A DNA stretch of 63,041 nucleotides from positions 1-63,041 of the IMG/VR virus record IMGVR_UViG_3300042509_001342. The stretch is one strand, 5' to 3'. Shown piece after piece: positions 19,171 to 31,276 of the stretch (the stretch's first letter is position 1; each line of letters opens with the position of its first letter). Source of the DNA: a virus. Under the pieces are notes generated by a model. That model was not told the origin of the DNA. It ran no database searches and saw nothing but the letters and a program-made list of their open reading frames with translations. Made by a program: the position numbers and the translations under genes.

Positions 19171-19224
19171 GTTGCCATGCCGCTTCTTCCCTGCATCTAG
19201 GGTCCGACGAGGGCTCTTGAACAG

Positions 19225-19274
19225 GGTCGCATGGCCCCCTTCGGGGGAGGCGGCAGGGCAGCGGCGGGCCGGGG
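19225..19274 (+). promoter_or_regulatory. Early leader element, copy 2
   Basis: GGTCGC, then CCCCCTTCGGGGG, GGCGGCAGGGCAGCGGC and GGCCGGGG. Lies about 50 bases upstream of ATG 19326. The following CCCTTGCAATAGGAG matches copy 1. The hairpin CCCCC-TT-CGGGGG region is predicted to fold. Confidence 0.55.
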
Positions 19275-19905: not shown

Positions 19906-20117
19906 ACTGCGTGAGGTGCGGATCAGTAGTGGACTCTGAGAGGGCCGAAGCCCTGACGGAGTTCGGCATTGCCGTTACTTGCAAGTCTTGTTCAACGGAG
20001 ATGCCGAGGGTTTGTTTCATGGATTACAGCCACAAGACTGCTCCTAGCCTTGTGGTTGTGGGTAACAACGCGGAGTCGGTCAGGCTTGCGAGTAATGCCT
20101 TCAAACGAAAGAGGTGA
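19902..20117 (+). CDS. Zinc-ribbon protein, about 71 aa, GTG start
   Basis: A CVRCGS and a later CKSCST give a four-cysteine zinc ribbon. The GTG at 19902 overlaps the upstream stop (GTGA). Another GTG two codons earlier (19896) is also possible. A basic C-terminus (NAFKRKR) follows. Nucleic-acid or protein binding is likely for this fold. Part of a three-gene unit 19639-20472. Confidence 0.55.
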   Translation: MNCVRCGSVVDSERAEALTEFGIAVTCKSCSTEMPRVCFMDYSHKTAPSLVVVGNNAESVRLASNAFKRKR

Positions 20118-20121
20118 CGGA

Positions 20122-20472
20122 ATGGACAGTTATGGGGAGCATCCCGAGATCAGCCATCTGAAACAAGTGATCGCGGAGCGGGATGAAACCTTGAAAGAAC
20201 TGAACGTGATGTACCAAGAACTGCAGGAGTCCAACAACAAGCGTTGGCAGGAGAACAAGGACCTCAAGGAAGAGGTTGAGCGGCTGAACGGGGTCATCAT
20301 CCAAGATAGCAAGTTGATCAGTGAACTGAGGACCCGGCTGCGGAATCAGGGCGACAAGCTGGAAGAGGACGTTAAGTACTGGACGGAGGCGTACACCTGT
20401 CAGTCCGCTCAGCGGAGTGCCGAGCAAGAGGCTTTCCTGAGGGTGATCAAGGTGCTGGCTGGTCGGGACTAG
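20122..20472 (+). CDS. Coiled-coil protein, 116 aa
   Basis: MDSYGEHPEISHLKQVIAE onward. Long heptad-patterned helix through about residue 85. ATG 20122 has GAGGTGA upstream; a longer frame from 19969 would overlap the zinc-ribbon gene and is less likely. Similar in style to the 88-residue coiled-coil protein two genes before, so the pair may interact. Function unknown. Confidence 0.65.
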   Translation: MDSYGEHPEISHLKQVIAERDETLKELNVMYQELQESNNKRWQENKDLKEEVERLNGVIIQDSKLISELRTRLRNQGDKLEEDVKYWTEAYTCQSAQRSAEQEAFLRVIKVLAGRD

Positions 20473-20476
20473 TTAG

Positions 20477-20530
20477 GGTCGCGGGAAGCCCCTTCGGGGC
20501 GGGGGGCAGGGCAGCGGCGGCGGGCCGGGC
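20477..20530 (+). promoter_or_regulatory. Early leader element, copy 3
   Basis: GGTCGC, then GCCCCTTCGGGGC, GGGGGGCAGGGCAGCGGC and GGGCCGGGC. It begins five bases after the upstream stop and about 50 bases before ATG 20581. The CCCCTTCGGGG hairpin is perfect in this copy. Confidence 0.6.
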
Positions 20531-20580
20531 CTTCCCCTTTTGGAGTTCGATTAGGCAATTACTAGAAAGCAAGGTGATTG

Positions 20581-21027
20581 ATGGCTGATGATCGAATTAC
20601 GAGTGAGTTCGACGCGATGCTGGCTGACATTCTCAGTGAATCCCCTGAGGCAGTTGTCACCGAGGTCGAGGAAGTCGGTGATGAGCCTGAGGTCGTGGCA
20701 CCCCCCATGCTCAAGCTTGAGACCATCGGGGACACGGTGAAGCACGTTCCGGCCCAGCAAGTCAGTGCGGTGGAGGCCGGTAAGCCCAAGGGTCGGTACA
20801 AGACGGACGATGGCAAGGTCGAGGTCGAGGCCGAAGCCCCATTCAAGGGCACGGTCTACACCAAGGGGTACCTGCAACTGAAGTTCGGTCAGTCGTGGAA
20901 CAAGGCCAGCCTGTACTACGACGAGTTCCTTGCCCTCAAGGAGTTCTTCAGGTCGGAAGCCTGCAGTGCCTACGAGATCAAGGCCACTGCGGCTGGATGG
21001 AAGGCTCGTCCGTCGAAGGGAGGTTGA
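20581..21027 (+). CDS. Early hypothetical protein, 148 aa
   Basis: MADDRITSEFDAMLADILSE onward. The first half is acidic (VTEVEEVGDEPEVV); the second half is a mixed alpha/beta region with KGTVYTKGYLQLKFGQSWNKASLYYDEF. AAGGTG precedes the ATG. No recognised family. First gene of a short unit with two small ORFs, ending at the terminator 21288-21333. Confidence 0.6.
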   Translation: MADDRITSEFDAMLADILSESPEAVVTEVEEVGDEPEVVAPPMLKLETIGDTVKHVPAQQVSAVEAGKPKGRYKTDDGKVEVEAEAPFKGTVYTKGYLQLKFGQSWNKASLYYDEFLALKEFFRSEACSAYEIKATAAGWKARPSKGG

Positions 21028-21033
21028 ACCCCC

Positions 21034-21117
21034 ATGGCAGGCGAAACAGTTGCGGACGGGACATTCTGGTTTGTGGTCGGGGCAGCGGCGTCATTTCTGG
21101 TGGTCAACTTTCTCTGA
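21034..21117 (+). CDS. Tiny membrane protein, 27 aa
   Basis: MAGETVADGTFWFVVGAAAS, then FLVVNFL and stop. The second half is a hydrophobic membrane span. GGGAGG lies upstream, overlapping the previous stop. Single-span mini-proteins are common in phages, for example in lysis control or exclusion. No specific role can be given. Confidence 0.5.
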   Translation: MAGETVADGTFWFVVGAAASFLVVNFL

Positions 21118-21127
21118 GGAGTTTTCT

Positions 21128-21241
21128 ATGCCTTGTTCCCAAGAGGTGATGGTGTGCGAGGTTCAGAAGCCGGGTCAGGTGATCGATTGGATGGACGATG
21201 TCGTGGGCTTCATTCATACTGAGGCTTATTCCGAGAACTAA
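21128..21241 (+). CDS. Small hypothetical protein, 37 aa
   Basis: MPCSQEVMVCEVQKPGQVID onward to SEN. GAGGAG lies six bases before the ATG. Ten bases follow the tiny membrane gene. Last gene before a strong terminator. Acidic and without a domain. Confidence 0.5.
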   Translation: MPCSQEVMVCEVQKPGQVIDWMDDVVGFIHTEAYSEN

Positions 21242-21287
21242 AGCTCCTTGCCTAGAACTTGCAAGGGGATAGGTGAGTCGAGCTTTG

Positions 21288-21333
21288 GCCCTGCCAGTCC
21301 TGAGGGAAACCTTGGGGCTGGCAGGGCTTTTTT
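21288..21333 (+). terminator. Rho-independent terminator
   Basis: GCCCTGCCAG pairs with CTGGCAGGGC, followed by six T. Ends the 20581-21241 unit. Confidence 0.85.
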
Positions 21334-21360
21334 GTTGGCCTTTCGAGGCTTTTCCCCGTG

Positions 21361-21399
21361 TGAATTGCTCTTGACCGGGCATTTCTACTGAAAAGGTGG
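21361..21399 (+). promoter_or_regulatory. Promoter-like motif ATTGCTCTTGACC
   Basis: AATTGCTCTTGACC, then a 17-18 base gap to CTGAAAA, ending near the ribosome site of the gene at 21407. The same order (ATTGCT-N-TTGAC, then CTT/TTT, then GAAAA) occurs on the minus strand at 33747-33789 and 35764-35806. TTGACC is a good -35; the -10 is unusual. Confidence 0.5.
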
Positions 21400-21406
21400 T
21401 GAACAG

Positions 21407-21526
21407 ATGGACGGTTTCGATGACTGCCCGCCGGTCGCGGCGGATGACCTGCTTCGGTACTTGGACAGTGTCGAGCAGCAGGCTGAGGAACAGGCACAAC
21501 TTGACCAATGGGAGGACGAGGAATGA
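21407..21526 (+). CDS. Small acidic protein, 39 aa
   Basis: MDGFDDCPPVAADDLLRYLD onward, ending in WEDEE. Very acidic and helical. AAGGTGG precedes the ATG, and the TGA overlaps the next ATG (ATGA). First gene after the promoter-like motif. Highly acidic mini-proteins in phages are sometimes DNA mimics or inhibitors; that is a guess. Confidence 0.55.
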   Translation: MDGFDDCPPVAADDLLRYLDSVEQQAEEQAQLDQWEDEE

Positions 21527-21711
21527 ACAAGAAAAAAGTTGAGTTCGTGAAAACAAGCACGTTTGACGGTGATGGCCCCGTTTATCGGGTGGTCAAGCTG
21601 ACCAACTGCGTCGATCCCGTGGTTGGTTCCCACATTTCAGCGAAAGAGATCAGGAAGTTCATTGAGTCGCGGCTGTGGACTGTGGTCATCAGAGAAGGGA
21701 AGAGTGAGTGA
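21523..21711 (+). CDS. Small hypothetical protein, 62 aa
   Basis: MNKKKVEFVKTSTFDGDGPV onward. ATG 21523 overlaps the previous stop and has GGAGGACGAGGA upstream, so it is preferred over the in-frame ATG 15 bases earlier. Mixed alpha/beta, no recognised family. Confidence 0.6.
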   Translation: MNKKKVEFVKTSTFDGDGPVYRVVKLTNCVDPVVGSHISAKEIRKFIESRLWTVVIREGKSE

Positions 21712-22019
21712 TGACGCACACACTGGGACCGTGGAGAATCGACTTTACGGCAGATAACGGCCACATGGCCGATCAGGTGGCACACAACAGCGATTGGCTG
21801 GCGGTTGAAGTCGTTGACGATGACATCGGGGGCCACGTTGCTTACTGCCACCACAGCAATGCACCGCTGATTGCCGCCGCGCCGGAGTTGTTGGCTGCAC
21901 TCAAGCAGTGCGCAGAGATCATCGCAGAGGAGGCCGAGGCGGAAGTGAATGAGAACGTGACAGAGGCCTACTACGACGCACTTCGCGCACTCGCCAAGGC
22001 AGAAGGGAGGGGTGAGTGA
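21711..22019 (+). CDS. Phage accessory protein, 102 aa
   Basis: MTHTLGPWRIDFTADNGHMA, later NAPLIAAAPELLAALKQC, then an acidic helix. The short ANAPLIAAAPELLAAL-type segment is a widespread phage and prophage motif of unknown function. ATG 21711 overlaps the upstream TGA (TGATG). Coupled to the next gene by GTGA. Confidence 0.65.
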   Translation: MTHTLGPWRIDFTADNGHMADQVAHNSDWLAVEVVDDDIGGHVAYCHHSNAPLIAAAPELLAALKQCAEIIAEEAEAEVNENVTEAYYDALRALAKAEGRGE

Positions 22020-22489
22020 AAGACCTGAAAGTGACTTTTGTCGAGATGGTGAAAGCGGCCTGCGAAAAGTACCTCGCCAACCCCGATCAAACGGTGCTTG
22101 GCTGGGACTACGACTTTGAGATTGAGTCCATCGAACTGCTCCCTGCCGATGCTGCCGGGGATGCGGCTTACGTCACCGTCAAGCGAAACTACGACGGCTC
22201 GTGGTCTGAACTCACGACCAACGGCGTTCCGTTCATGTTCAAGGTGCGGTACTGGAACGAGTACGGCGATGAAGAAAACTCGCCATGCCACCCCGAGAAA
22301 ACTCTCGGCATGTGCGAGGTGGTGACCGAAGTTGGCAAGTTGATTGCGGGGCAGGCCGATCTCGACAGCGCACTGGACTCCATGAGGGAGATCAGGGGCG
22401 ATTTGTACGAGGTAGGCAAGGTTGTTTCGACCGATGAGGCCCTGAAGATCATGGAAGCACGACTCAACGAACAGGGGAGGACCAAGTGA
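22016..22489 (+). CDS. Hypothetical protein, 157 aa, GTG start
   Basis: MKDLKVTFVEMVKAACEKYL onward. Mixed alpha/beta with an acidic N-terminal half and a helical C-terminus (ADLDSALDSMREIRGDLYEVG). The GTG overlaps the previous stop (GTGA). No recognised family. Part of a tightly coupled series 21407-23560. Confidence 0.6.
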   Translation: MKDLKVTFVEMVKAACEKYLANPDQTVLGWDYDFEIESIELLPADAAGDAAYVTVKRNYDGSWSELTTNGVPFMFKVRYWNEYGDEENSPCHPEKTLGMCEVVTEVGKLIAGQADLDSALDSMREIRGDLYEVGKVVSTDEALKIMEARLNEQGRTK

Positions 22490-22701
22490 AGCGATACCAC
22501 GACGAAATCTCGCTGATGGATCGGCGGGCCAAGGAATGGATGACGTTCGGTCCCGGTGGTGTGGAGAGGGGGCGGTTCAGGAAGAAGAAGCCCTTCGATT
22601 GTGGCAAGAGCAGGTGCAGCGTCTGTCATGTCGAGAGCAAGTTCCCCAAGCGGACCCCGACCAGAAAGGAGCGAATGAATGACGCAGATCAAGACTACTG
22701 A
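22486..22701 (+). CDS. Small basic CxxC protein, 71 aa
   Basis: MKRYHDEISLMDRRAKEWMT onward. A cysteine before SRCSVCH suggests partial zinc binding (CGKSRCSVCH). Very basic C-terminal half (FPKRTPTRKER). GTG start overlaps the previous stop (GTGA). Likely nucleic-acid binding by composition only. Confidence 0.55.
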   Translation: MKRYHDEISLMDRRAKEWMTFGPGGVERGRFRKKKPFDCGKSRCSVCHVESKFPKRTPTRKERMNDADQDY

Positions 22702-23560
22702 AGTTGACCTGAGTGAGGACGCCTTCACTTGGTGGGACTCCACCGACCTGAGGGTGGACGATCTCCACAACGCCTTGAGTGCAGTGAGCATGGGCAACTT
22801 GGCACCCAAGGCCAGCACGGTCAATCACGCCCTGACCGAGACTCTGTCAGGGTTCATATCGGCGGCAGGCATCAAGGTGCGGGGTTGCCCCATCAAAATC
22901 ACCCCGCTGCGGTTGGATGTGAAGGGGGTCGAGGCTGTCCGTCTGACCCGTGGCGAAACCAGCAATGAACATGAACACGTTATGTCCATCGCATTGGACA
23001 AGGACGATCACGTTCGGGTGGCCAAGTTTAACTCTGACTTCGTTCCCCAAGTCGCCGCCATTCAGGCCAAGCTTGAGGAAAAGATGACCGAAGTCTTTCG
23101 GTCCCAGATGGATTACTACCCGGCCCACATGGTTAGCACCTGCATCAGCAGGGTGGTGGCCAGCTTCGGTGGTGTGCTGGCCAAGGCTTCGGGCGGCGTT
23201 TACTTCCTGCCGTCAACGGTGACTCCCAAGTTCGAGGAGTTTGCCGGGAAGCTGAGCATGGGCATCACGATCAACAAGTTCGCAATCAAGCCGGGCACGA
23301 CCTCGTATTCCTGCGTTGTCAAGGCAATCAGGAAGGAGATTCAGGACGCCCTGCTTGAGATCGAAGAGGGCATGAAAGACCTCGGCGGTTCCATGCGGAC
23401 CAATGGGATGCAGTCGAGGCTCAAGCGGTTGGATGAACTGAAAGCCAAGGTCAAAGCCTATGAGGCAATCCTTGGCATGGCGATGACTGATCTGACTGAT
23501 GCGGTGGACAAAGTCAGTGATGCGGTGTCGGCGTTCAATGCAATGGCGGTGTGTTCCTAA
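22679..23560 (+). CDS. Hypothetical protein, 293 aa, first of the MoxR/VWA group
   Basis: MTQIKTTEVDLSEDAFTWWD onward. The N-terminal 120 residues look alpha/beta; the C-terminal third is helical (KAIRKEIQDALLEIEEGMKDLG, then RLKRLDELKAKVKAYEAIL). AGGAGCG precedes the ATG. It lies directly upstream of the AAA+ ATPase and the zincin/VWA protein. I have a faint memory of a DUF of this size beside such ATPases in phages, but cannot confirm it. Possibly the substrate adaptor of the group. Confidence 0.6.
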   Translation: MTQIKTTEVDLSEDAFTWWDSTDLRVDDLHNALSAVSMGNLAPKASTVNHALTETLSGFISAAGIKVRGCPIKITPLRLDVKGVEAVRLTRGETSNEHEHVMSIALDKDDHVRVAKFNSDFVPQVAAIQAKLEEKMTEVFRSQMDYYPAHMVSTCISRVVASFGGVLAKASGGVYFLPSTVTPKFEEFAGKLSMGITINKFAIKPGTTSYSCVVKAIRKEIQDALLEIEEGMKDLGGSMRTNGMQSRLKRLDELKAKVKAYEAILGMAMTDLTDAVDKVSDAVSAFNAMAVCS

Positions 23561-23568
23561 TTACTTAC

Positions 23569-23627
23569 GGTCGCACGAAGCCCCTTCGGGGCCGGTGGCA
23601 GGGCAGGGGCAGGACCGGCGACGGCCC
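23569..23627 (+). promoter_or_regulatory. Early leader element, copy 4
   Basis: GGTCGC, then GCCCCTTCGGGGC, GGTGGCAGGGCAGGGGC and ACCGGCGACGG. It precedes the AAA+ ATPase gene by 28 bases and follows the upstream stop closely, as copy 3 does. Its place inside a gene series suggests internal control of the MoxR/VWA unit. Confidence 0.6.
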
Positions 23628-23654
23628 CCCAAAACCAAGGAGAAATCAGAGTTC

Positions 23655-24800
23655 ATGGTTGCTGCAAAGAAATCAAATCATTGGCACAAGGCTGACCCAA
23701 ATGCGGCCTTCTGGCTGGCGGTTCAGGCTGGCATCGCCTCGGAGACCGAAGGGCCTCCGGGTGTTGCCAAATCATCCAGCGTCTTGCAGATGTGCAAGAG
23801 CATGGGGCGGGACATGATGCTGCTCATCGGCAGTACCCACGCTCCTGAGGATGTGGCTGGCATCCCGTTCGTGAGTTCGTGCAAGGCGTTCTTCGATATG
23901 GTTCCGCCCCGGTGGGCTGAGCGGCTGAGTCGGCCCGGGGCCCTGCTGTTCATTGACGAGTTGACCACGGTGCCACCGGCAATGCGGGCGGCTCTGCTGT
24001 CCATGCTGACGGAGCGGCGGCTTGGCAGTCTGGTCATCCACCCGGACACGTTGATGGCTGCGGCTTGCAACCCGGCCCACATGGCTCCCAATGCCAGCCC
24101 GCTTGAGAAGTCGATGGCCAACCGCTTCTTCCATTGCGAGTGGAAGCACGACTTCGATAGCTGGCAGGCCGGTATGGAGTCTGAGAACGACGCTTGGGGT
24201 TCCCCTTGGTTTCCGGTTGTGGAATCCGATTGGCGGCGTCATGCCATCAAGTGGGGCCACATGATCACCGGCTACCTGCGTAAGAACAGCAACGAGCGGA
24301 TTCTGATTCCGCAGAACGATGACGAGAAGGCGTTCCCGACTCCCCGGACTTGGCACTACCTGCGGAATTGCTTGGCTGCTGCCGAGTCGGTTGAGGCACC
24401 GGCTCACATCCAGAGCCAGCTTGCCGCCGGTTGTGTGGGCAAGACGGTGGGGTCCAACTTCTTCCGGTACGTCAGCGAACTGGACTTGGTGGACCCGGAA
24501 GCTGTGATTGCCGGGACCGCGACGTTTGTGTTCGACCGGAAGCGGATTGACTTGGCTTCGGCCCTGCTTACCTCGCTGGTGTCGTGCATCCGGCGGGATT
24601 ACTCGCAGGATCGGCTCGACGCTGCGGTGGAAGTTTTCACCAACAACGTCGGCAAGAACGCCCGAGACCTTGTACTGAGCCAGCTTCGGCATCTGGTTCA
24701 GGCCCGCCCGGAGGGTACGGCACTGTCGGCTAAGACGATCAAGAACATCACCGAGTTCGGCAAGGACATCCCCGATGCCGTTCGCAGAAGGAGGGCCTAA
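23655..24800 (+). CDS. MoxR-type AAA+ ATPase
   Basis: 381 residues. Walker A GPPGVAKS (33-40), Walker B LLFIDE (97-102), sensor-1 asparagine in AACNP (about 139) and a candidate arginine finger at ANRF. These place it in the MoxR branch, which works as a chaperone-like ring with VWA partner proteins. ATG 23655 has AAGGAGAA upstream; the longer frame from 23499 runs through the leader and is unlikely. The stop overlaps the start of the VWA partner (TAATG), as is usual for such pairs. The substrate is unknown. Confidence 0.85.
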   Translation: MVAAKKSNHWHKADPNAAFWLAVQAGIASETEGPPGVAKSSSVLQMCKSMGRDMMLLIGSTHAPEDVAGIPFVSSCKAFFDMVPPRWAERLSRPGALLFIDELTTVPPAMRAALLSMLTERRLGSLVIHPDTLMAAACNPAHMAPNASPLEKSMANRFFHCEWKHDFDSWQAGMESENDAWGSPWFPVVESDWRRHAIKWGHMITGYLRKNSNERILIPQNDDEKAFPTPRTWHYLRNCLAAAESVEAPAHIQSQLAAGCVGKTVGSNFFRYVSELDLVDPEAVIAGTATFVFDRKRIDLASALLTSLVSCIRRDYSQDRLDAAVEVFTNNVGKNARDLVLSQLRHLVQARPEGTALSAKTIKNITEFGKDIPDAVRRRRA

Positions 24801-26269
24801 TGACAGCAGCAGCAGTGGTTACACCTGCGGAATTGTTCAGTCACTTCCGCATGATGACCTATCAGTACTTCCCGTACCTGTCTCCCTACGTTTACTCCCT
24901 TGTCCCAGTTGAAAGGCCGGGGCTGGGGACGATGGCAGTGGATATGTACGGACGGGTTTATTACGACCCAGCGTTTTGCGAGAAGCTGACGCTGGAGCAG
25001 GGGTCCTACGTTGTTCTGCACGAAGCAATGCACCTGATCCTCAGGCATTGCCACCGTGCCGAGAAGATCATCGGCAAGACCCCGAGCAAGCGGGAACGCA
25101 GCAAGTACAACATCGCGGTTGACTTGGTTGTGTGGGAAATGATGGAGGCTATTGCCGAACACGCCCCCGGCAACCCTGTCACGTTCCCCACTCTGCAAGC
25201 CAAGTACCCGAAGCTTGAAAAGAATCTGACGGTGGAGGAAATCTACTCCATCATTTCGGAGAAGCAGCAGGGTGGTGGCGGTGGTGGCGAGGGGCCCAAG
25301 GGTGATGGCCCGGAGACTGAGTGTGATGACGAGAACAACGAGCCTGACCAGAGCGACGAGTCTGGCGATGACGAGTCCCCCGAAACCGACAGTGGCGAAA
25401 GCGAGGACGATGATGGTGGCGATGACCAGAGAGGGGAAGACACTTCTGGCAAGGGCCCTGCTGAAGATGACGAAGACGGAGACAGCAGTTCGGGCGACGA
25501 AGATGCTGACGAAGACAGCGAGTTCGACAAAGTAGGCGGCGGGTCTGGTGCTGACGGTGACCCCCGTGATTACGAGGAGGAGCCCAATGACAACTGGGAG
25601 ACCTTCCAAGAAGACAAGCTGCTTGAGGCTATTGAGCAGAAGATCGAAGAGGAAGAGCAGGAGCGTGGAATCGGGACCATTCCCGGTGAACTGAAGCGTG
25701 TCATCAAGAACAAGCTTCGGCCTCAGCCCAATCCTTGGGATGTGCTGCGGTCCACGGTTGCCAAGGCTATTGCCAATAGCCGTGGGGCTCCTGACTCGAC
25801 CTACCGGAGGATGAGTCGGCGTCAGTCCATCATGCCGGATGACACCCGGCTGAAAGGCCAGCAGCGGTACTCCCCAAGTGCTGCCTGTGTGATCGACACC
25901 AGCGGCTCAATGACTTCGGAGTGTCTGGCCAAGGCACTGGTTGTCGTGCAGCAGGGGCTCAAGGCAATCGGCAAGCTGCCGGTCATCACCTGTGACGCTC
26001 GGGTTACCGGGGACAGGGTGCTGACGGCAGTCAGTCAGGACTTCGTTCTGGCTGGGGGCGGCGGGACGGACATGAGAATCCCGATTGCCCACGCTGAGAA
26101 AGAGTATCGGCCGGATGTGATTGTGCTTGTGACGGACGGCTACACCCCATGGCCAAGCAAGCCCACCAAGGGGCAGTTGATTGTGGCCTGCACGACGGAC
26201 TGCCAAGGCATACCGCCGTGGGCCAAGACGGTTCGGATTCCCGATGCACCAAACAAGGAGGAACTGTGA
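24800..26269 (+). CDS. Zincin-like plus VWA-domain protein (MoxR partner)
   Basis: 489 residues. N-terminal putative metallopeptidase domain with HEAMH at 74-78 and a third histidine at 83. A long acidic, Ser/Gly/Asp linker runs from about 155 to 265. The C-terminal VWA-like domain has a MIDAS DTSGSM (366-371), GGGGTDM and VTDGY. This order matches the DUF2201 type of VWA-like metallopeptidases. Partner of the ATPase just upstream. It may act as a chaperone that inserts a metal or remodels a host complex. Function in the phage is unknown. Confidence 0.82.
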   Translation: MTAAAVVTPAELFSHFRMMTYQYFPYLSPYVYSLVPVERPGLGTMAVDMYGRVYYDPAFCEKLTLEQGSYVVLHEAMHLILRHCHRAEKIIGKTPSKRERSKYNIAVDLVVWEMMEAIAEHAPGNPVTFPTLQAKYPKLEKNLTVEEIYSIISEKQQGGGGGGEGPKGDGPETECDDENNEPDQSDESGDDESPETDSGESEDDDGGDDQRGEDTSGKGPAEDDEDGDSSSGDEDADEDSEFDKVGGGSGADGDPRDYEEEPNDNWETFQEDKLLEAIEQKIEEEEQERGIGTIPGELKRVIKNKLRPQPNPWDVLRSTVAKAIANSRGAPDSTYRRMSRRQSIMPDDTRLKGQQRYSPSAACVIDTSGSMTSECLAKALVVVQQGLKAIGKLPVITCDARVTGDRVLTAVSQDFVLAGGGGTDMRIPIAHAEKEYRPDVIVLVTDGYTPWPSKPTKGQLIVACTTDCQGIPPWAKTVRIPDAPNKEEL

Positions 26270-27612
26270 ACAACAAGAAGATTGCCACAGCTTCATGGCT
26301 TGCGAAGAAGGCCATGTCGCTGATGAAAAGAGACCCTGAAGAGTACGAGCGGCTGATCACTGGCGGATCGGAGAAGGTGCTGAGCGGAACAGTGGTCAAG
26401 CTGGATTGCAATTCACACAACTCTACCCCCAGTTACTTTGCGATCCGAGTGAAAGGCAAAGAGGAGTACTGCCGCGTGTTTTCCGTGCGGCACAAGGAAA
26501 AGCTGTACAGCTTCTACAGCTTTCACTTCACGGCAACCCAGTATCGAAAGCGGCTGACGGACAAGTACCTGCCGATCACCCTGCCTGAGGGTGTGAAGTG
26601 CAGGACGTATGTCAACTCGCCAGTAACCAAATGCCTGTATCACAACGCTGACGGGTCTTTGGCTATGACTGGTGTGTGGAAAGGCGGCGGTCGGGGCAGG
26701 CCCGGTGTTCCGAGTAGTCACGTTGTTTTGAATGACGAGACCGGGGCGTTTGTTGATGACCGCGAACTGGTTCACAAAGTGATTGCAGGCTGCATGAATC
26801 AGAGCGTTCAGGCCAACTATCAGTTCTTCCATGCCGCCAGCAAAAAGCGTTCGGAATGGCTTCGGTCTTTCGAGTGCATGACCGGCATGTGCGACATGAA
26901 GAAGGTGCTGAAGATTGCGGCAGAGACCTATCGGATGGCGTCGAGGATGTGCGAAAGGCACAAGGGCCTGAGCCTGACGCTGTTCCCCGCTGCCATGGTG
27001 GACAAGTTCAAGGTCGAGAGCCGCCTTCAGTCTGTCCGTGTTTCCGGGATGGGCGGCAGGCAGACGGTGCTGGCCCGGGACGAAAACCACAACCCGACGC
27101 TGTGCTACCTGCCTGAGGTTGTGCTGTCGTGGGATGAACGATTCGTGACTTCCGAGTATGGGTCAGCGTGGGGCGGCATCGTCATGCAGATCGTGCCGCA
27201 CGGCAACGCTTTGCTTGACCCCATTGGCTACGGGTCCCAGTTGTCGAGGCACTACAGAACTCTTGGCGATGTGCCGAGGGGCGAGCCATTGCGTGCGGTC
27301 ACGGATAAGTCGGTGCTTCTGGAGCGGGCATACCACTCGCTGGAAGCCTATGACCCAGCGACACCCATTGAAAATCGAGGGGGCCTGCATCGGTACTGGG
27401 GGTGGGCGGCTTACGGTGAGAAGCACGTTTACAGCGAGGACGAAAACAAGATTGTCTTGTGGCCGAAGCATCGGGACAAGGTTCGCGTCATCGGTTTTGG
27501 GACTGGGTTCGACCAGTTGTTTGAGCAAGAAGACCCGGTTGCGGAGACCCCTGAAAACATCAGCCTTCTGATTGAAGAGAAGCTTCTGATGGGGAGTCTG
27601 CCACTGTGTTGA
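26266..27612 (+). CDS. Hypothetical protein, 448 aa, coupled to VWA gene
   Basis: GTG 26266 overlaps the VWA stop (GTGA), so it is translated with that unit; the longer frame from 26149 is a shadow. Begins MNNKKIATASWLAKKAMSLM. Mixed alpha/beta with many aromatic and basic residues, a cysteine cluster in ECMTGMCDMKK and no recognised family. Its position makes it a candidate fourth component or target of the MoxR/VWA group. Confidence 0.65.
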   Translation: MNNKKIATASWLAKKAMSLMKRDPEEYERLITGGSEKVLSGTVVKLDCNSHNSTPSYFAIRVKGKEEYCRVFSVRHKEKLYSFYSFHFTATQYRKRLTDKYLPITLPEGVKCRTYVNSPVTKCLYHNADGSLAMTGVWKGGGRGRPGVPSSHVVLNDETGAFVDDRELVHKVIAGCMNQSVQANYQFFHAASKKRSEWLRSFECMTGMCDMKKVLKIAAETYRMASRMCERHKGLSLTLFPAAMVDKFKVESRLQSVRVSGMGGRQTVLARDENHNPTLCYLPEVVLSWDERFVTSEYGSAWGGIVMQIVPHGNALLDPIGYGSQLSRHYRTLGDVPRGEPLRAVTDKSVLLERAYHSLEAYDPATPIENRGGLHRYWGWAAYGEKHVYSEDENKIVLWPKHRDKVRVIGFGTGFDQLFEQEDPVAETPENISLLIEEKLLMGSLPLC

Positions 27613-27884
27613 ACCAAGCACTGCCTTACCTCAGTGCTGCGGTGGCACTGGGGTTTATTTACTACTGGCTTGTGACCATGGAACCAGCATTGGTTTCACG
27701 GAAGACATACAAGCAACGGACTGCGGTGGTTGCAGCGTATGCAACTTTCGTGGTGCTGACCAGAAATGGCGGCTTCAATTATTTCCAGTTGGCTGCGGAG
27801 TGCCTTGCGTTATTGCACATCTTCAGCCTTGTGACGGCGTTTCTCTATGGGGATGCAATGCACAACATGAAAGACAACTGCTGA
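27606..27884 (+). CDS. Small membrane protein, 92 aa
   Basis: MLNQALPYLSAAVALGFIYY onward, with two or three hydrophobic spans (residues 5-22, about 42-54 and 62-80). GTG at 27606, or the next codon TTG, overlaps the end of the previous gene. It follows the MoxR/VWA genes and is coupled to the next gene by TGATG. May anchor the group to the membrane; speculative. Confidence 0.6.
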   Translation: MLNQALPYLSAAVALGFIYYWLVTMEPALVSRKTYKQRTAVVAAYATFVVLTRNGGFNYFQLAAECLALLHIFSLVTAFLYGDAMHNMKDNC

Positions 27885-28138
27885 TGGAAGAACGAGCGAT
27901 ACCTCTGAACGTCTACGGGTACATGGTTGTTTACCGGCAGCAAGCCGGTGGCAAATGGACCGTTGACACTGACGATGAGTACCTGAACCTGCCCGCCCAC
28001 TACCTATCAGTGGACGAAGCACTGGATCGGGTTGAGTACCTGCGGAAGAAGGGCATTGAATCTCGTGTCGCTGCGTTGGTGGCCGAGAGTACGGACACAG
28101 CCGAAGAGTTTGAGGAGAACAAAGCCGATGGCCAGTAA
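27884..28138 (+). CDS. Hypothetical protein, 84 aa
   Basis: MEERAIPLNVYGYMVVYRQQ onward. N-terminal beta strands, C-terminal acidic helix. The ATG overlaps the preceding TGA. No family recognised. Its last codons overlap the start of the helix-turn-helix gene. Confidence 0.6.
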   Translation: MEERAIPLNVYGYMVVYRQQAGGKWTVDTDDEYLNLPAHYLSVDEALDRVEYLRKKGIESRVAALVAESTDTAEEFEENKADGQ

Positions 28139-28484
28139 GACGAAGATGCCGATTGAGCAGTTCATTCCCCTTTATCTCGCCGCCCACAAGGCTGGCCTGA
28201 CCAAGGAGGAATTCGCAAAGAAGATCGGGGTGTCTCCGATCACGGTGTACCAGCGGGTGTACGAACTGAACCGCGAGGGCCTCGGCCTTCCGATCTTGGG
28301 TGCCAAGCCCAAGATGAGCCTGATCGACCGTGCCAAGGCGGCAATGCAGGCTGCGGGAACCAGCACCGCTGAGCCCAAGGGCAAGGCCAAGGCTGCGGCC
28401 AAGGTTGTCGAGCCCAAGGTCGAGGTCGAGGAAGCGGACGAGGTCGAGCCGCAGGACGAACTGGAACAGCTTCTGAACGGGTGA
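28128..28484 (+). CDS. Helix-turn-helix DNA-binding protein, 118 aa
   Basis: MASKTKMPIEQFIPLYLAAH onward. The segment LTKEEFAKKIGVSPITVYQRV fits a helix-turn-helix (about residues 24-44). A long lysine/alanine/proline linker and an acidic end (EEADEVEPQDELEQLL) follow. Likely an early transcription regulator. Last gene before the terminator at 28490-28526. Confidence 0.7.
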   Translation: MASKTKMPIEQFIPLYLAAHKAGLTKEEFAKKIGVSPITVYQRVYELNREGLGLPILGAKPKMSLIDRAKAAMQAAGTSTAEPKGKAKAAAKVVEPKVEVEEADEVEPQDELEQLLNG

Positions 28485-28489
28485 TCTTT

Positions 28490-28526
28490 ACCCCGGAGCA
28501 GAGGAGCATCCTCTGCTCCGGGGTTT
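28490..28526 (+). terminator. Rho-independent terminator
   Basis: ACCCCGGAGCAGAGG pairs with CCTCTGCTCCGGGGT, followed by TTTCTCTT. Ends the MoxR/VWA-HTH unit. Confidence 0.8.
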
Positions 28527-28547
28527 CTCTTACTTGAAGGGATTCAA

Positions 28548-28868
28548 ATGAGGTTTGTTATTTGTCTTTTGTCTTTGATTGTATGCGGCCAGTGTTTCGC
28601 TGAACCGTCCTGCCGTAACGGCCAGTGCGGCGTGATCTCCAAGTTGGAGACTGCGACCGCTCAAGGTGTGGCCAATCTGATGGCAAGGCTCCGAAGGATG
28701 GGTCATTACGGTGGCAACAGCGGGTACGAGGGGGTGGGCGTTGGCTCGACTCCCCAGCAGGCTCTTCGCAACTGCTGCTATTCCAACAGTGGGATGGCAG
28801 TTGTTGATGAGGGCGTGGCCCGTGGTTCGGACGGTCGGTGGTATGCGTGTCGCAGGTACTCTCGGTAA
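28548..28868 (+). CDS. Secreted cysteine-containing protein, 106 aa
   Basis: Signal peptide MRFVICLLSLIVCGQCFA, then two cysteines in SCRNGQC, a central GGNSGYEGVGVGSTPQQALRNCC-type segment and GRWYACRRYSR. The ATAQGVANLMA...EGVGVG...NCC pattern is one I recall from planctomycete secreted proteins. Could be a moron gene that changes the cell surface. Function unknown. Confidence 0.6.
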   Translation: MRFVICLLSLIVCGQCFAEPSCRNGQCGVISKLETATAQGVANLMARLRRMGHYGGNSGYEGVGVGSTPQQALRNCCYSNSGMAVVDEGVARGSDGRWYACRRYSR

Positions 28869-28882
28869 CCAAGGAGGGCTCT

Positions 28883-29272
28883 ATGCCTATCGTGTTTTCT
28901 CCGGTCAAAGCTCGCCGCCAAGAAGGCAAGTTTGACCTGACGGTTTCTCCCCGGGGCTATCGCTCCGGTTCACTTGCCATGGAGTTTTCATTCTCCACGG
29001 GAGTGCAGGATCGGGTTCGGTACGTTGACGGTGATCGGGTTGTGGTTGTGTTCGATGAGACCCAAAAGACGCTTGTCGTGGAGCGGGTGGGTGCCGACAC
29101 CCCCGGCTACAAGGTGTGTGTCAAGAAGCTGCAGCATGGCCGTGAGGCTGTGAGGGTGCGGGTTGGCTGCACCAAGCAGCACTGGGTTCAGGTTCTCGGT
29201 GAGTCTCGTAGCAAGAAGTACGAACTCTTCGAGATCAACGGCAACAAGGTCACGTTCATGGAATCTGCTTGA
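28883..29272 (+). CDS. Hypothetical protein, 129 aa
   Basis: MPIVFSPVKARRQEGKFDLT onward; beta-rich and basic, no recognised family. ATG 28883 has AAGGAGGG upstream, better than the longer frame from 28838. Ends with a strong terminator. Appears to share a transcript with the secreted protein before it. Confidence 0.6.
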   Translation: MPIVFSPVKARRQEGKFDLTVSPRGYRSGSLAMEFSFSTGVQDRVRYVDGDRVVVVFDETQKTLVVERVGADTPGYKVCVKKLQHGREAVRVRVGCTKQHWVQVLGESRSKKYELFEINGNKVTFMESA

Positions 29273-29277
29273 TCATT

Positions 29278-29322
29278 GGCCAGCCCGGTTCCCGAACACG
29301 GGGCCGGGCTGGCCTTCTTTTT
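29278..29322 (+). terminator. Rho-independent terminator
   Basis: GGCCAGCCCGG pairs with CCGGGCTGGCC, followed by a T-rich run. Strong stem. Confidence 0.85.
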
Positions 29323-29341
29323 TCACGGAGCGAATAGATCA

Positions 29342-29668
29342 ATGGATACCCACAAAAACAAATCACCAGAGTGCGATACCCCGAACTGCCTGATCTGCAA
29401 GTTCTGGCCCACAGCCTCAGCCATGTTCCACCCTCAAGCTGCTGAATTCTGGGTGGACAAAGAGACCGCTGAGGTTTTCGTGGCCACCGGACTCAAGGCT
29501 CTGTCCACCGGGGAGGTAGTGGAGATGGAGGAGCGGCTGTTCACCTACGTCAAGGCTGTCTGCGACTGCGGTAACGAAGCCGTCATGCGGGCCGACATCC
29601 TGACAAATGGATATTCGGATCGCTGCCCTGTGTGTGCCGCCCTGTCTGCCGAAGCCGCCTCAAACTGA
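29342..29668 (+). CDS. Cysteine-rich zinc-binding protein, 108 aa
   Basis: MDTHKNKSPECDTPNCLICK onward, with further cysteines in CDCG and CPVC. At least two metal sites are likely. The ATG is twelve bases after GGAG. It starts a unit that continues with the LexA-like protein. Role unknown. Confidence 0.6.
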   Translation: MDTHKNKSPECDTPNCLICKFWPTASAMFHPQAAEFWVDKETAEVFVATGLKALSTGEVVEMEERLFTYVKAVCDCGNEAVMRADILTNGYSDRCPVCAALSAEAASN

Positions 29669-29676
29669 GAGAACCA

Positions 29677-29910
29677 ATGACAACCAAGAACAAAGTACTG
29701 ACGCCAACTCAAGAAGACATCCTCGGGTTCATCGCATCCACCATCTACAAGTCTGGGTACCAGCCATCGTATCGGGAGATATGCAAGAAGTTTGGCTTTC
29801 GATCACCGGCTGCTGTCACCAATCACCTGAAGGCTTGCGAGAAGAAGGGGGCCTGCAAGCGACGGCCCGGGTGTAGGTCCTTGGAGTTTTCGTGGAGGGA
29901 ATACCTATGA
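29677..29910 (+). CDS. LexA-like DNA-binding domain protein, 77 aa
   Basis: LTPTQEDILGFIASTIYKSG, then YQPSYREICKKFGFRSPAAV and TNHLKACEKKG match the LexA N-terminal winged helix along its whole length, including the Y-x-P-x-x-R-E-I core. The S24 peptidase half is absent, so it cannot self-cleave in the SOS response. It might bind host LexA boxes or phage operators. Expressed early from the unit starting at 29342. Confidence 0.8.
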   Translation: MTTKNKVLTPTQEDILGFIASTIYKSGYQPSYREICKKFGFRSPAAVTNHLKACEKKGACKRRPGCRSLEFSWREYL

Positions 29911-30101
29911 GCAAGCCAGCGTGGACTGAGAAAGTCGAGCAAGGAATGTGGATCATCGTGGCCCGCTCTGCCACTGTGATGGCAGCGGAATCGGAGAGCA
30001 ACTTCTTGGACAAGGAGACCAAGGAGAAGGTGCTGGCTGCGGTTCGTTACGCCGAACACCACTGGCAGAAAGACCGGGAAGCAAAAGAAAGGAACGAGTG
30101 A
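29907..30101 (+). CDS. Small hypothetical protein, 64 aa
   Basis: MSKPAWTEKVEQGMWIIVAR onward, then a charged helix. The ATG overlaps the stop of the LexA-like gene and has GGAGGG upstream. No recognised family. Confidence 0.55.
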   Translation: MSKPAWTEKVEQGMWIIVARSATVMAAESESNFLDKETKEKVLAAVRYAEHHWQKDREAKERNE

Positions 30102-30430: not shown

Positions 30431-31276
30431 ATGCCAAAAGCTTACGGGTACTGCCGTGCCAGCACTGGAAGGCAGGACCTCACCTTTGACGTACAGAAAG
30501 CTGCCATCGAAAGATACTACGAGGGCAAGCTGAAACAGGAGGGGTTTGAGTGGGGCGGGGCCTATGAAGACAAGGATGTTTCAGGGGCCCAGCCATTCAC
30601 TGAGCGGCCGAAGGGCAGAGAGCTGTTTGTTCTGGCTCAGCCGGGGGATGCGATTATCTGGCACAAAATGGACAGGGCTTTCCGAAGCGTGATGGACGGT
30701 GCCAATACCTTCAACCTGCTCAAGACCAAGGGCATTGCAGTTCACTCGCTCGACATTCAGTTGGACACAAGCACGGCCATGGGTTCTTTCGTGTGCCACT
30801 TGATGATGCTGCTCGGGGAACTGGAAAGATCGTGGATCAGCACCCGTACAAGGGAGGCACTGGAGGCACGGAAAGCACGGGGTCTGCCGCCGTCTTGTTC
30901 GCTGCCGCCCGGATGGAAGTCGATTGGCGTCGGGAAAGAAAGGCACCTTGTCCCTGACATAAGGGAACGCCAGATCATTGAGATGGTCCGTGCCAAGTTT
31001 TTATCCGGCATGACGCTGGAGAAAATCTCAAACGAGCTTTACTTCAAGAAGATCAAGCGGATTCGCAATAGCCCCACGAAAAGAAAGGCGACTTCGGAGT
31101 ACGACCGCCAGTTCCTAGAGTTCTCCCTGATGGCAAGGGCAGAAGGGTATCCAGTGACCGCGTCCATAATGGCGTGGAAAAAAACTATTGGCAAAGTCAA
31201 ACTGACCAAGCCATTCAGGGTGAGGCTGCTGGAAATGGAAGAGCAACACGCTCAAGCAAGCGGTTCATCTTCGTAA
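30431..31276 (+). CDS. Serine recombinase (resolvase/invertase family)
   Basis: 281 residues. N-terminal catalytic domain YGYCRASTGRQ with the nucleophile serine near residue 12, MDRAFRS near 82 and LGELERSWISTRTREAL with the long E-helix. A recombinase-like region follows, with no large zinc-ribbon or coiled-coil domain, so it is smaller than classical large serine integrases. Starts behind AGGAGG. It could invert or resolve DNA, or be a second integrase. The gene end overlaps the sigma factor gene tail-to-tail by 25 bases. Confidence 0.85.
   Translation: MPKAYGYCRASTGRQDLTFDVQKAAIERYYEGKLKQEGFEWGGAYEDKDVSGAQPFTERPKGRELFVLAQPGDAIIWHKMDRAFRSVMDGANTFNLLKTKGIAVHSLDIQLDTSTAMGSFVCHLMMLLGELERSWISTRTREALEARKARGLPPSCSLPPGWKSIGVGKERHLVPDIRERQIIEMVRAKFLSGMTLEKISNELYFKKIKRIRNSPTKRKATSEYDRQFLEFSLMARAEGYPVTASIMAWKKTIGKVKLTKPFRVRLLEMEEQHAQASGSSS

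Follow-up and report, generated by a model that had tools for sequence, protein, structure and literature searches.

The 63,041-nt viral record IMGVR_UViG_3300042509_001342, analysed here over its whole length (positions 1–63,041; hereafter, the window), encodes at 22679–27612 a set of four genes comprising a MoxR-type AAA+ ATPase, a metallopeptidase-like VWA protein and two linked partners. We read this locus as a core, ATP-driven MoxR–VWA remodelling machine of the phage with dedicated extra subunits, placed in a replication-side gene block, a reading for which our confidence and our doubt are about equal. The MoxR/VWA pair itself is already known in phages, from gp24/gp25 of N4 and, since 2021, from jumbo phages; in N4-like and jumbo phages alike, the two are core genes without an explained role. 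What the present analysis adds is its linked partners, namely an association with the DUF6744 family and a lineage-specific protein, P0004. With a constant partner, what was vaguely called a ‘chaperone’ becomes a definite complex for which co-expression, structure determination and client bait are possible, and experiments on this core phage machine, long without explanation, become easier.

Organization and conservation of the locus

All four genes are co-directional, on the + strand. P0001 (293 residues, 22679–23560) is followed by a hairpin-bearing leader repeat (23562–23610, + strand) and then by the ATPase P0002 (381 residues, 23655–24800), by P0003 (489 residues, 24800–26269), which carries a zincin-like HEAMH domain, an acidic linker and a VWA domain with a MIDAS site, and by P0004 (448 residues, 26266–27612), which has a GTG start. 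The P0002 stop overlaps the P0003 start in TAATG at 24798–24802, and the P0003 stop overlaps the P0004 start in GTGA at 26266–26269, both as described in the original prediction. The shared leader that it had placed between P0001 and the ATPase gene is also real: a repeat search found the approximately 49-nt hairpin-bearing element (repeat family D1) in three + strand copies (19217–19265, 20470–20518 and 23562–23610), and a pattern search returned none in shuffled sequence, with zero expected by chance. The related contigs L021 and L181 have GC-rich hairpin leaders at the equivalent place, with a sequence different from that of the window.

All near-complete relatives retain the order DUF6744–MoxR–VWA–P0004. 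It is seen in five records, found with VWA, helicase or P0004 as seed (the window, L021, L181, G004/L241 and G008/L242), and no shorter relative contig extending into the region departs from it. The genes are thus not scattered in relatives, and the proposal of a conserved four-gene set stands. A nucleotide-level search of phage records found no relatives, and among genome contigs there was no relative with P0003 alone.

The set lies apart from the portal and capsid genes of the window, which are on the minus strand; around it are small + strand genes without known function, with recombinase and regulator-like reading frames nearby. In a flank scan, the neighbours in DUF6744 loci were mostly helicases, primases and exonucleases; a DUF927 protein is encoded in one such locus, and DNA polymerase A in one locus with the DUF3150-like family described below. 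This replication-gene neighbourhood does not by itself prove a replication client.

The ATPase and the metallopeptidase–VWA protein

As predicted, P0002 is assigned to the MoxR-type AAA+ ATPases, by its motifs and by the adjoining, TAATG-overlapped gene for a VWA co-chaperone. It scores 22.6 bits with Pfam AAA_5 (cut-off 22), matches phrog_1297 ‘ATPase’ at E 3e-45 and contains a Walker A motif (GPPGVAKS), a Walker B motif (LLFIDE), sensor N139, Arg finger R157 and sensor-2 R231. K39, D101/E102, N139, R157 and R231 are near-invariant among 75 viral and 82 bacterial homologues, and the Walker A motif has A where G is usual, as in 9 of the 75 viral sequences. When the P0002 profile was compared with the PDB, the best matches were to Midasin, itself a member of the MoxR clade, with NorQ lower down, weaker and distant. 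The record of the MoxR homologue of phage PA5oct bears the remark ‘ESI-MS/MS’, which we take as detection in particles.

P0003 had been described as a HEAMH-plus-MIDAS protein, and both halves are borne out. It matches DUF2201_N (PF13203, ‘putative metallopeptidase’, 100.7 bits) and DUF2201 (PF09967, ‘VWA-like’, 52.3 bits), each above the curated cut-off; a PHROG label of ‘HNH endonuclease’ for the VWA family was set aside in favour of these Pfam domains. The HExxH motif reads HEAMH (H74, E75 and H78) and is retained at 74, 72 and 75 of 78 viral homologues, respectively, the remainder being mostly gaps, and the MIDAS residues D366, S368, S370, T423 and D446 are present and nearly invariant. 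H74, E75, H78, D366, S368, S370 and D446 lie outside the search patterns used to collect the homologues. Conservation also points to D108 or H83 as a candidate third metal ligand, the value for D108 being biased by its position inside a search pattern. Between the domains, at approximately residues 151–275, is a linker with 40% D/E. Comparison with the PDB gave a weak likeness of the N-domain to M48 peptidase and of the VWA domain to the Mg-chelatase 60 kDa subunit.

The pairing of these two genes is widespread. In nearly all of the 85 viral loci and in 77 of 80 bacterial loci, MoxR and DUF2201 VWA genes are a short distance apart, which favours the predicted remodelling pair. The closest cellular relatives are pairs on actinobacterial plasmids and chromosomes (VWA identity to the window 32–36%), in which the genes overlap or abut, as in the window.

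In some bacterial homologues the catalytic Glu has been lost and both His are retained, suggesting that cleavage is not always the point. This stricter retention of His would also suit a chelatase- or NorQD-like machine inserting a metal or cofactor into a phage metalloprotein, as would weak profile hits on subunits of Mg-chelatase and cobaltochelatase and a resemblance of the acidic P0003 linker to the designs of CobT and NorD. The flank scan revealed no metallo-cofactor enzyme as a constant neighbour, however, and we consider metal insertion very improbable.

DUF6744 and an exclusive alternative third component

The 293-residue protein P0001, originally listed as unknown, is in fact a member of Pfam DUF6744 (PF20529; 42.4 bits, cut-off 27), aligned over profile positions 106–306 of 314. 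Its AlphaFold2 model has a pLDDT of 86.4, and a fold search of the PDB with this model found no significant solved relative. Searched by tblastn with P0001, phage and plasmid records yielded no meaningful hit, not even at E 10.

When VWA was used to find viral loci, approximately 21 of the 85 had DUF6744 next to MoxR and VWA. The association is reciprocal: among 32 loci found through DUF6744, MoxR is present in 27 and both MoxR and VWA in 23, with varying gene order and strand. The archaeal virus HVTV-1 also has a DUF6744 homologue, and its MoxR and VWA genes are located in other parts of the genome. No DUF6744 gene was found near any of 80 bacterial MoxR–VWA pairs, nor was P0004 adjoining them, unlike in the window; DUF6744 was likewise not found in N4. 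The pair can therefore work without DUF6744. The literature that we searched contained no paper on DUF6744, and no link of DUF6744 or P0004 to a MoxR/VWA motor; the family now has a clear genomic partner.

In 24 other viral loci, the slot of DUF6744 is occupied by a family of approximately 290 residues, which we term DUF3150-like mainly because the MinM2 record says so. Pfam DUF3150 proper had no match in 13 records, and one member of the slot family reaches 18.6 bits where the cut-off is 24.9. The two families never occur together (overlap 0; hypergeometric P = 0.0003, with loci counted without regard to kinship), and the type of third gene tracks the VWA tree, with 15 changes compared with 38 in shuffles. 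Homology between them was considered and rejected, as reversed or unrelated controls scored at least as well in profile comparison with larger alignments; we therefore claim positional analogy alone. Comparing two mutually exclusive third subunits would be a natural way to learn how the machine is directed to its target.

P0004, a lineage-specific partner

The 448-residue protein remains without a family, as first noted: P0004 has no match in Pfam, PHROG, NCBIfam or PADLOC, none that is meaningful in phage and plasmid records by tblastn even at E 10, and none that is significant in a fold search of the PDB. Its predicted model is poor (pLDDT 66). Homologues are confined to one phage lineage (L020, L021, L180–L182, G004 and G008), and share a conserved, DSLPLC-like C-terminal tail. 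Weak P0004 matches in H101 and RD-1410W1-01 are not beside MoxR–VWA in the stretches examined, and weak XisI-like and aminopeptidase fold matches from the P0001 and P0004 searches were not used.

Since P0004 occurs in a single lineage, common descent of the gene order may be all that lies behind its linkage. The functional unit could then be the MoxR–VWA pair, with or without DUF6744, and P0004 an unrelated neighbour held by synteny and translational overlap; this we find somewhat unlikely. Consistent with it, P0004 is absent from distant DUF6744–MoxR–VWA loci and lies approximately 0.8–1.2 kb after VWA in G004 and G008. Against it, P0004 follows VWA in every contig that reaches the region, in unchanged order, and its start overlaps or abuts the VWA gene in the window, L021 and L181.

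More broadly, we tentatively propose, with less confidence than for the locus itself, that a three-part machine of MoxR, a metal-binding VWA protein and an interchangeable DUF6744 or DUF3150-like subunit is common to bacterial and archaeal tailed viruses and acts on one core viral client, with P0004 being, in the window's lineage, that client or a fourth subunit, recognised by its tail.

Proposed mechanism and relation to known systems

The mechanistic template is provided by the activases NorQ/NorD and CbbQ/CbbO, which combine a MoxR ring with a VWA partner that has an N-domain, a linker and a MIDAS, and in which NorQD twists its VWA protein, finger in pore, against its own N-terminal domain (PMC13036017). 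Their N-terminal domain differs from that of P0003, and their clients are nitric oxide reductase and rubisco. By analogy with NorQD, P0002 would form an AAA+ ring that grips the P0003 VWA domain, each ATP cycle turning or pulling this domain relative to the N-terminal metal-binding domain across the acidic linker. A client could be held at two points, the N-domain and the MIDAS site, a type of site known to capture peptide (PMC7159879); held in this way, it might be forced to change conformation or to assemble, and might also be cleaved should the HEAMH site be active. DUF6744 would be the constant third subunit, most likely a client-specific adaptor or scaffold. In the window's lineage, P0004 would be either an additional partner or the client, with its exposed, conserved tail as a candidate recognition tag. 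The most likely client would be a phage complex required during lytic replication, not a protein of the host's defences.

The original prediction knew of no described phage function for this arrangement, but equivalents have been reported. N4 gp24 (ATPase) and gp25 (DUF2201 metallopeptidase–VWA) are 2 of 14 N4-like core genes and are on middle transcripts (PMC4193335). They are adjacent and in the same order as the window's pair, at identities of 21% and 19%, and both sets are replication-side. N4 differs in having no P0004 beside the pair, and its VWA belongs to the other, DUF3150-associated clade. The MoxR and N-terminal metallopeptidase–vWA pair of jumbo phage group 2.2, for which Iyer et al. 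(2021) proposed virion assembly and peptidolytic processing (PMC7824862), has a two-protein architecture identical to that of the window, where the genes are likewise adjacent and phage-borne. The window's genome is 63 kb, not that of a jumbo phage, and has two further linked partners, which the available portion of that source does not mention for the jumbo pair.

That proposal makes the machine a virion-assembly chaperone with a built-in protease, folding or assembling head or tail proteins that the HEAMH domain would trim. It was drawn explicitly for the jumbo-phage architecture by analogy with ATV p618/p892, a virus-encoded MoxR and VWA pair from archaeal virus tail development that, unlike the window's, has no metallopeptidase domain (PMC7824862). 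The metallopeptidase-type pair is found in phages with different kinds of virion, from the podovirus N4 up to jumbo myoviruses, and both the PA5oct remark and the virion proteins encoded close to gp24/gp25 homologues in RPP1 (PMC4193335) fit such a role. However, the neighbouring genes are replication rather than structural genes, N4 gp24/gp25 are middle and not late, and the window's set is on the strand opposite to portal and capsid. Close MoxR–VWA relatives also occur in many actinobacterial genomes, with no virion role evident there, and the missing Glu of some bacterial homologues fits trimming poorly. We consider a virion role unlikely, and favour the replication-side remodelling machine.

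The original suggestion of a device for host takeover or counter-defence, acting by remodelling a complex of the host, seems less probable still. The set does sit where takeover genes usually do, among small + strand unknowns near a recombinase and regulator-like reading frames, and ternary MoxR–VWA systems are known from conflict loci of bacteria (PMC7159879). The VMAP/iSTAND/beta-propeller systems of Kaur et al. (2020) resemble the window in combining MoxR and vWA with a dedicated third protein. That third protein, the effector domains and the bpMoxR model of these systems are unmatched in the window, with bpMoxR scoring 14.9 bits (cut-off 27), and the PADLOC defence models gave no match to the set; specific support for remodelling of the defence response is thus lacking. 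The set is a lineage core, built on an N4-like core gene pair (PMC4193335), rather than a patchy accessory, and bacterial phages and an archaeal virus have an equivalent machine.

A conserved gene set, and two alternative third genes at viral MoxR-VWA loci

The window, which at 63,041 bases is an entire IMG/VR virus record, carries four plus-strand open reading frames (ORFs) where the original prediction placed them: P0001 (22679-23560), the ATPase P0002 (23655-24800), the VWA protein P0003 (24800-26269) and P0004 (26266-27612). The predicted overlaps, TAATG at the ATPase/VWA junction and GTGA at the VWA/P0004 junction, are present in the sequence. P0001, previously called unknown, is a DUF6744 member by family profile match; P0004 has no family match in four libraries. 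P0002 strongly matches phrog_1297 and lies marginally over the AAA_5 cut-off, and P0003 matches both DUF2201 models. A nucleotide search of positions 20000-30000 against 50,697 phage records found no relative.

The ATPase/VWA pair is itself known. N4 gp24 and gp25 form the same adjacent pair, with gp25 reaching 293 bits on one DUF2201 model and 158 on the other; both belong to the 14-gene core of N4-like phages and are middle transcripts (PMC4193335). In jumbo phages of group 2.2, Iyer et al. 2021 (PMC7824862) describe MoxR paired with a vWA protein bearing an N-terminally fused metallopeptidase; drawing on ATV as an analogy, they propose that it acts in virion assembly. AAA and vWA genes also adjoin in haloarchaeal viruses (PMC7911831). 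The earlier statement that no phage function had been described was therefore too strong, although the literature searched held no experimental test of the virion-assembly proposal. The association with partner genes is new relative to the papers searched, none of which treats DUF6744 or DUF3150. Both phrog_1314 and the N4 RefSeq record label this VWA protein (window 24800-26269; gp25, L007:2165-3307) an 'HNH endonuclease'; Pfam instead finds metallopeptidase-like and VWA-like regions in P0003 and gp25, and the label looks like a propagated annotation error.

VWA-alignment scans covered the best 80 viral and best 80 bacterial loci of larger sets; MoxR lies close to VWA in nearly all viral loci and in 77 of the 80 bacterial ones, and DUF6744 lies near none of the 80 bacterial VWA genes. 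Clustering of neighbours at 85 viral loci shows the third place taken by two same-sized families, DUF6744 (21 loci) and a DUF3150-like family (24), which never occur together (0/85; hypergeometric P 0.0003, kinship ignored) and between which no evidence of homology was found. Mapped on the VWA tree, the third-gene label shows 15 changes, where shuffled labels average 38; N4 and MinM2 fall in the DUF3150-like clade and the window in the DUF6744 clade, inside which actinobacterial VWA genes nest. Searching the other way, with DUF6744 alone, gave 32 viral loci (five on already-seen contigs); within the stretch covered, 27 have MoxR, some by weak matches, and 23 have MoxR and VWA. Gene orders include MoxR-VWA-DUF6744, DUF6744-MoxR-VWA, DUF6744-VWA-MoxR, MoxR-DUF6744-VWA and divergent arrangements, and persistence near MoxR/VWA despite such rearrangement is what a functional link would predict. 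DUF6744 is probably a working subunit of the machine. An AlphaFold2 model of P0001 (20 family members; pLDDT 86.4) consists of an alpha/beta N-terminal part and, at the C-terminal end, three long helices; it has no significant match among solved structures and matches only uncharacterised proteins in a viral structure library.

The family extends to the archaeal virus HVTV-1, where 9797-10963 matches the DUF6744 profile (67 bits), about 15 kb from the VWA and ATPase genes. The structural match L7TK87 (E 1e-10) is presumably the product of this gene, given its length of 383 residues.

Putative mechanism and role

The ATPase retains the Walker A lysine, Walker B, sensors and Arg finger, with A replacing G in Walker A, a substitution shared by 9 of 75 viral homologues. 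Against solved structures, profile searches rank Midasin first and NorQ lower for the ATPase, and weakly match the two parts of the VWA protein to Mg-chelatase and M48 peptidase. Among 78 viral VWA homologues, H74 is kept in 74, E75 in 72 and H78 in 75, while none departs at any of the five MIDAS residues; conservation of T423 and D108/N104 is biased because these fall within the search patterns, the remaining residues being unaffected. Bacterial homologues keep both His in 84 of 85 and the catalytic Glu in 74, so that metal binding is apparently constrained more strongly than catalysis in cells; phage copies retain both sets of residues. The HExxH Glu is replaced in about 10 of the 84 bacterial DUF2201 homologues with both His (loci L099-L178), and this pattern suggests that some may bind metal without proteolysis.

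MoxR-VWA is very probably a remodelling machine. By the twisting described for NorQD (PMC13036017), the ring would rotate the VWA domain relative to the N-terminal domain across the linker (P0003 residues 151-275, 40% Asp/Glu), while the MIDAS would capture a client peptide (PMC7159879). The 89 sizeable genes neighbouring DUF6744 loci fall most often into DNA helicase and primase PHROG families; exonucleases and integrases also occur, as do a few RIIB proteins and lysis proteins, and no structural family is in the top 25. This context is also matched by a DUF927 protein at one DUF6744 locus and by DNA polymerase A at one DUF3150-like locus. Portal, scaffold and capsid matches lie on the window's minus strand, which also carries helicase, Erf-like and exonuclease genes. 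Neighbours and strand layout thus favour a putative replication-phase role over a late virion role, but the ESI-MS/MS flag on the MoxR homologue in the PA5oct record and the virion proteins encoded near gp24/gp25 homologues in RPP1 keep a virion role plausible. That the client is a phage complex of this phase is a tentative proposal, slightly short of an even chance.

P0004 and the hairpin leader

The set is real and conserved. The window's complete order DUF6744-MoxR-VWA-P0004 recurs in the relatives L021, L181, G004/L241 and G008/L242; G005, L182, L020 and G007 are consistent with it over their reach. A P0004 profile was built from six homologues, and P0004 also occurs on independent contigs found via a window helicase; more distant DUF6744 loci lack it. 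Because the order repeats across these contigs, P0004 is a stable member of the set within its lineage. Identity over most of its length is only about 30%, yet its extreme C terminus (S[LM]PLC, DSLPML, DSLPLS) is conserved; its model has a pLDDT of 66 and is poor past residue 240. The chances are about even that it acts as a partner or client. Soon after the MoxR-VWA pair, actinobacterial plasmids encode a conserved, uncharacterised protein of about 390 residues (L011:8584-9762, L013:8412-9599, L015:8645-9817) that showed no sequence match to P0004, and they carry another AAA ATPase as well.

The predicted shared leader is borne out by an intergenic element of about 49 nt with a GCCCC-TTC-GGGGC hairpin, in three plus-strand copies (19217-19265, 20470-20518, 23562-23610), each with a start codon a few dozen bases downstream; shuffled sequence contains none. 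It is possibly a shared regulatory or processing element of the phage, and it may indicate that transcription or processing of MoxR-VWA-P0004 is separate from that of DUF6744. In L021 and L181, a GC-rich hairpin with another sequence occupies the same position ahead of the ATPase gene.

In relatives, a conserved small ORF (about 65-75 aa, MLYRHKYRAGMTPEDSEFL...) separates MoxR from VWA (L021 6801-7000, L181 5320-5530, L182 1040-1260); the window lacks this ORF, and its MoxR and VWA genes overlap. A serine recombinase-like gene (phrog_95/phrog_125; 30431-31276) lies about 2.8 kb past the window's set, and a recombinase-like gene lies at a comparable distance in L021 (11868-12818) and L181 (10574-11524). 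By eye, the N-terminal part of a small ORF at 29632-29910 resembles a LexA DNA-binding domain.
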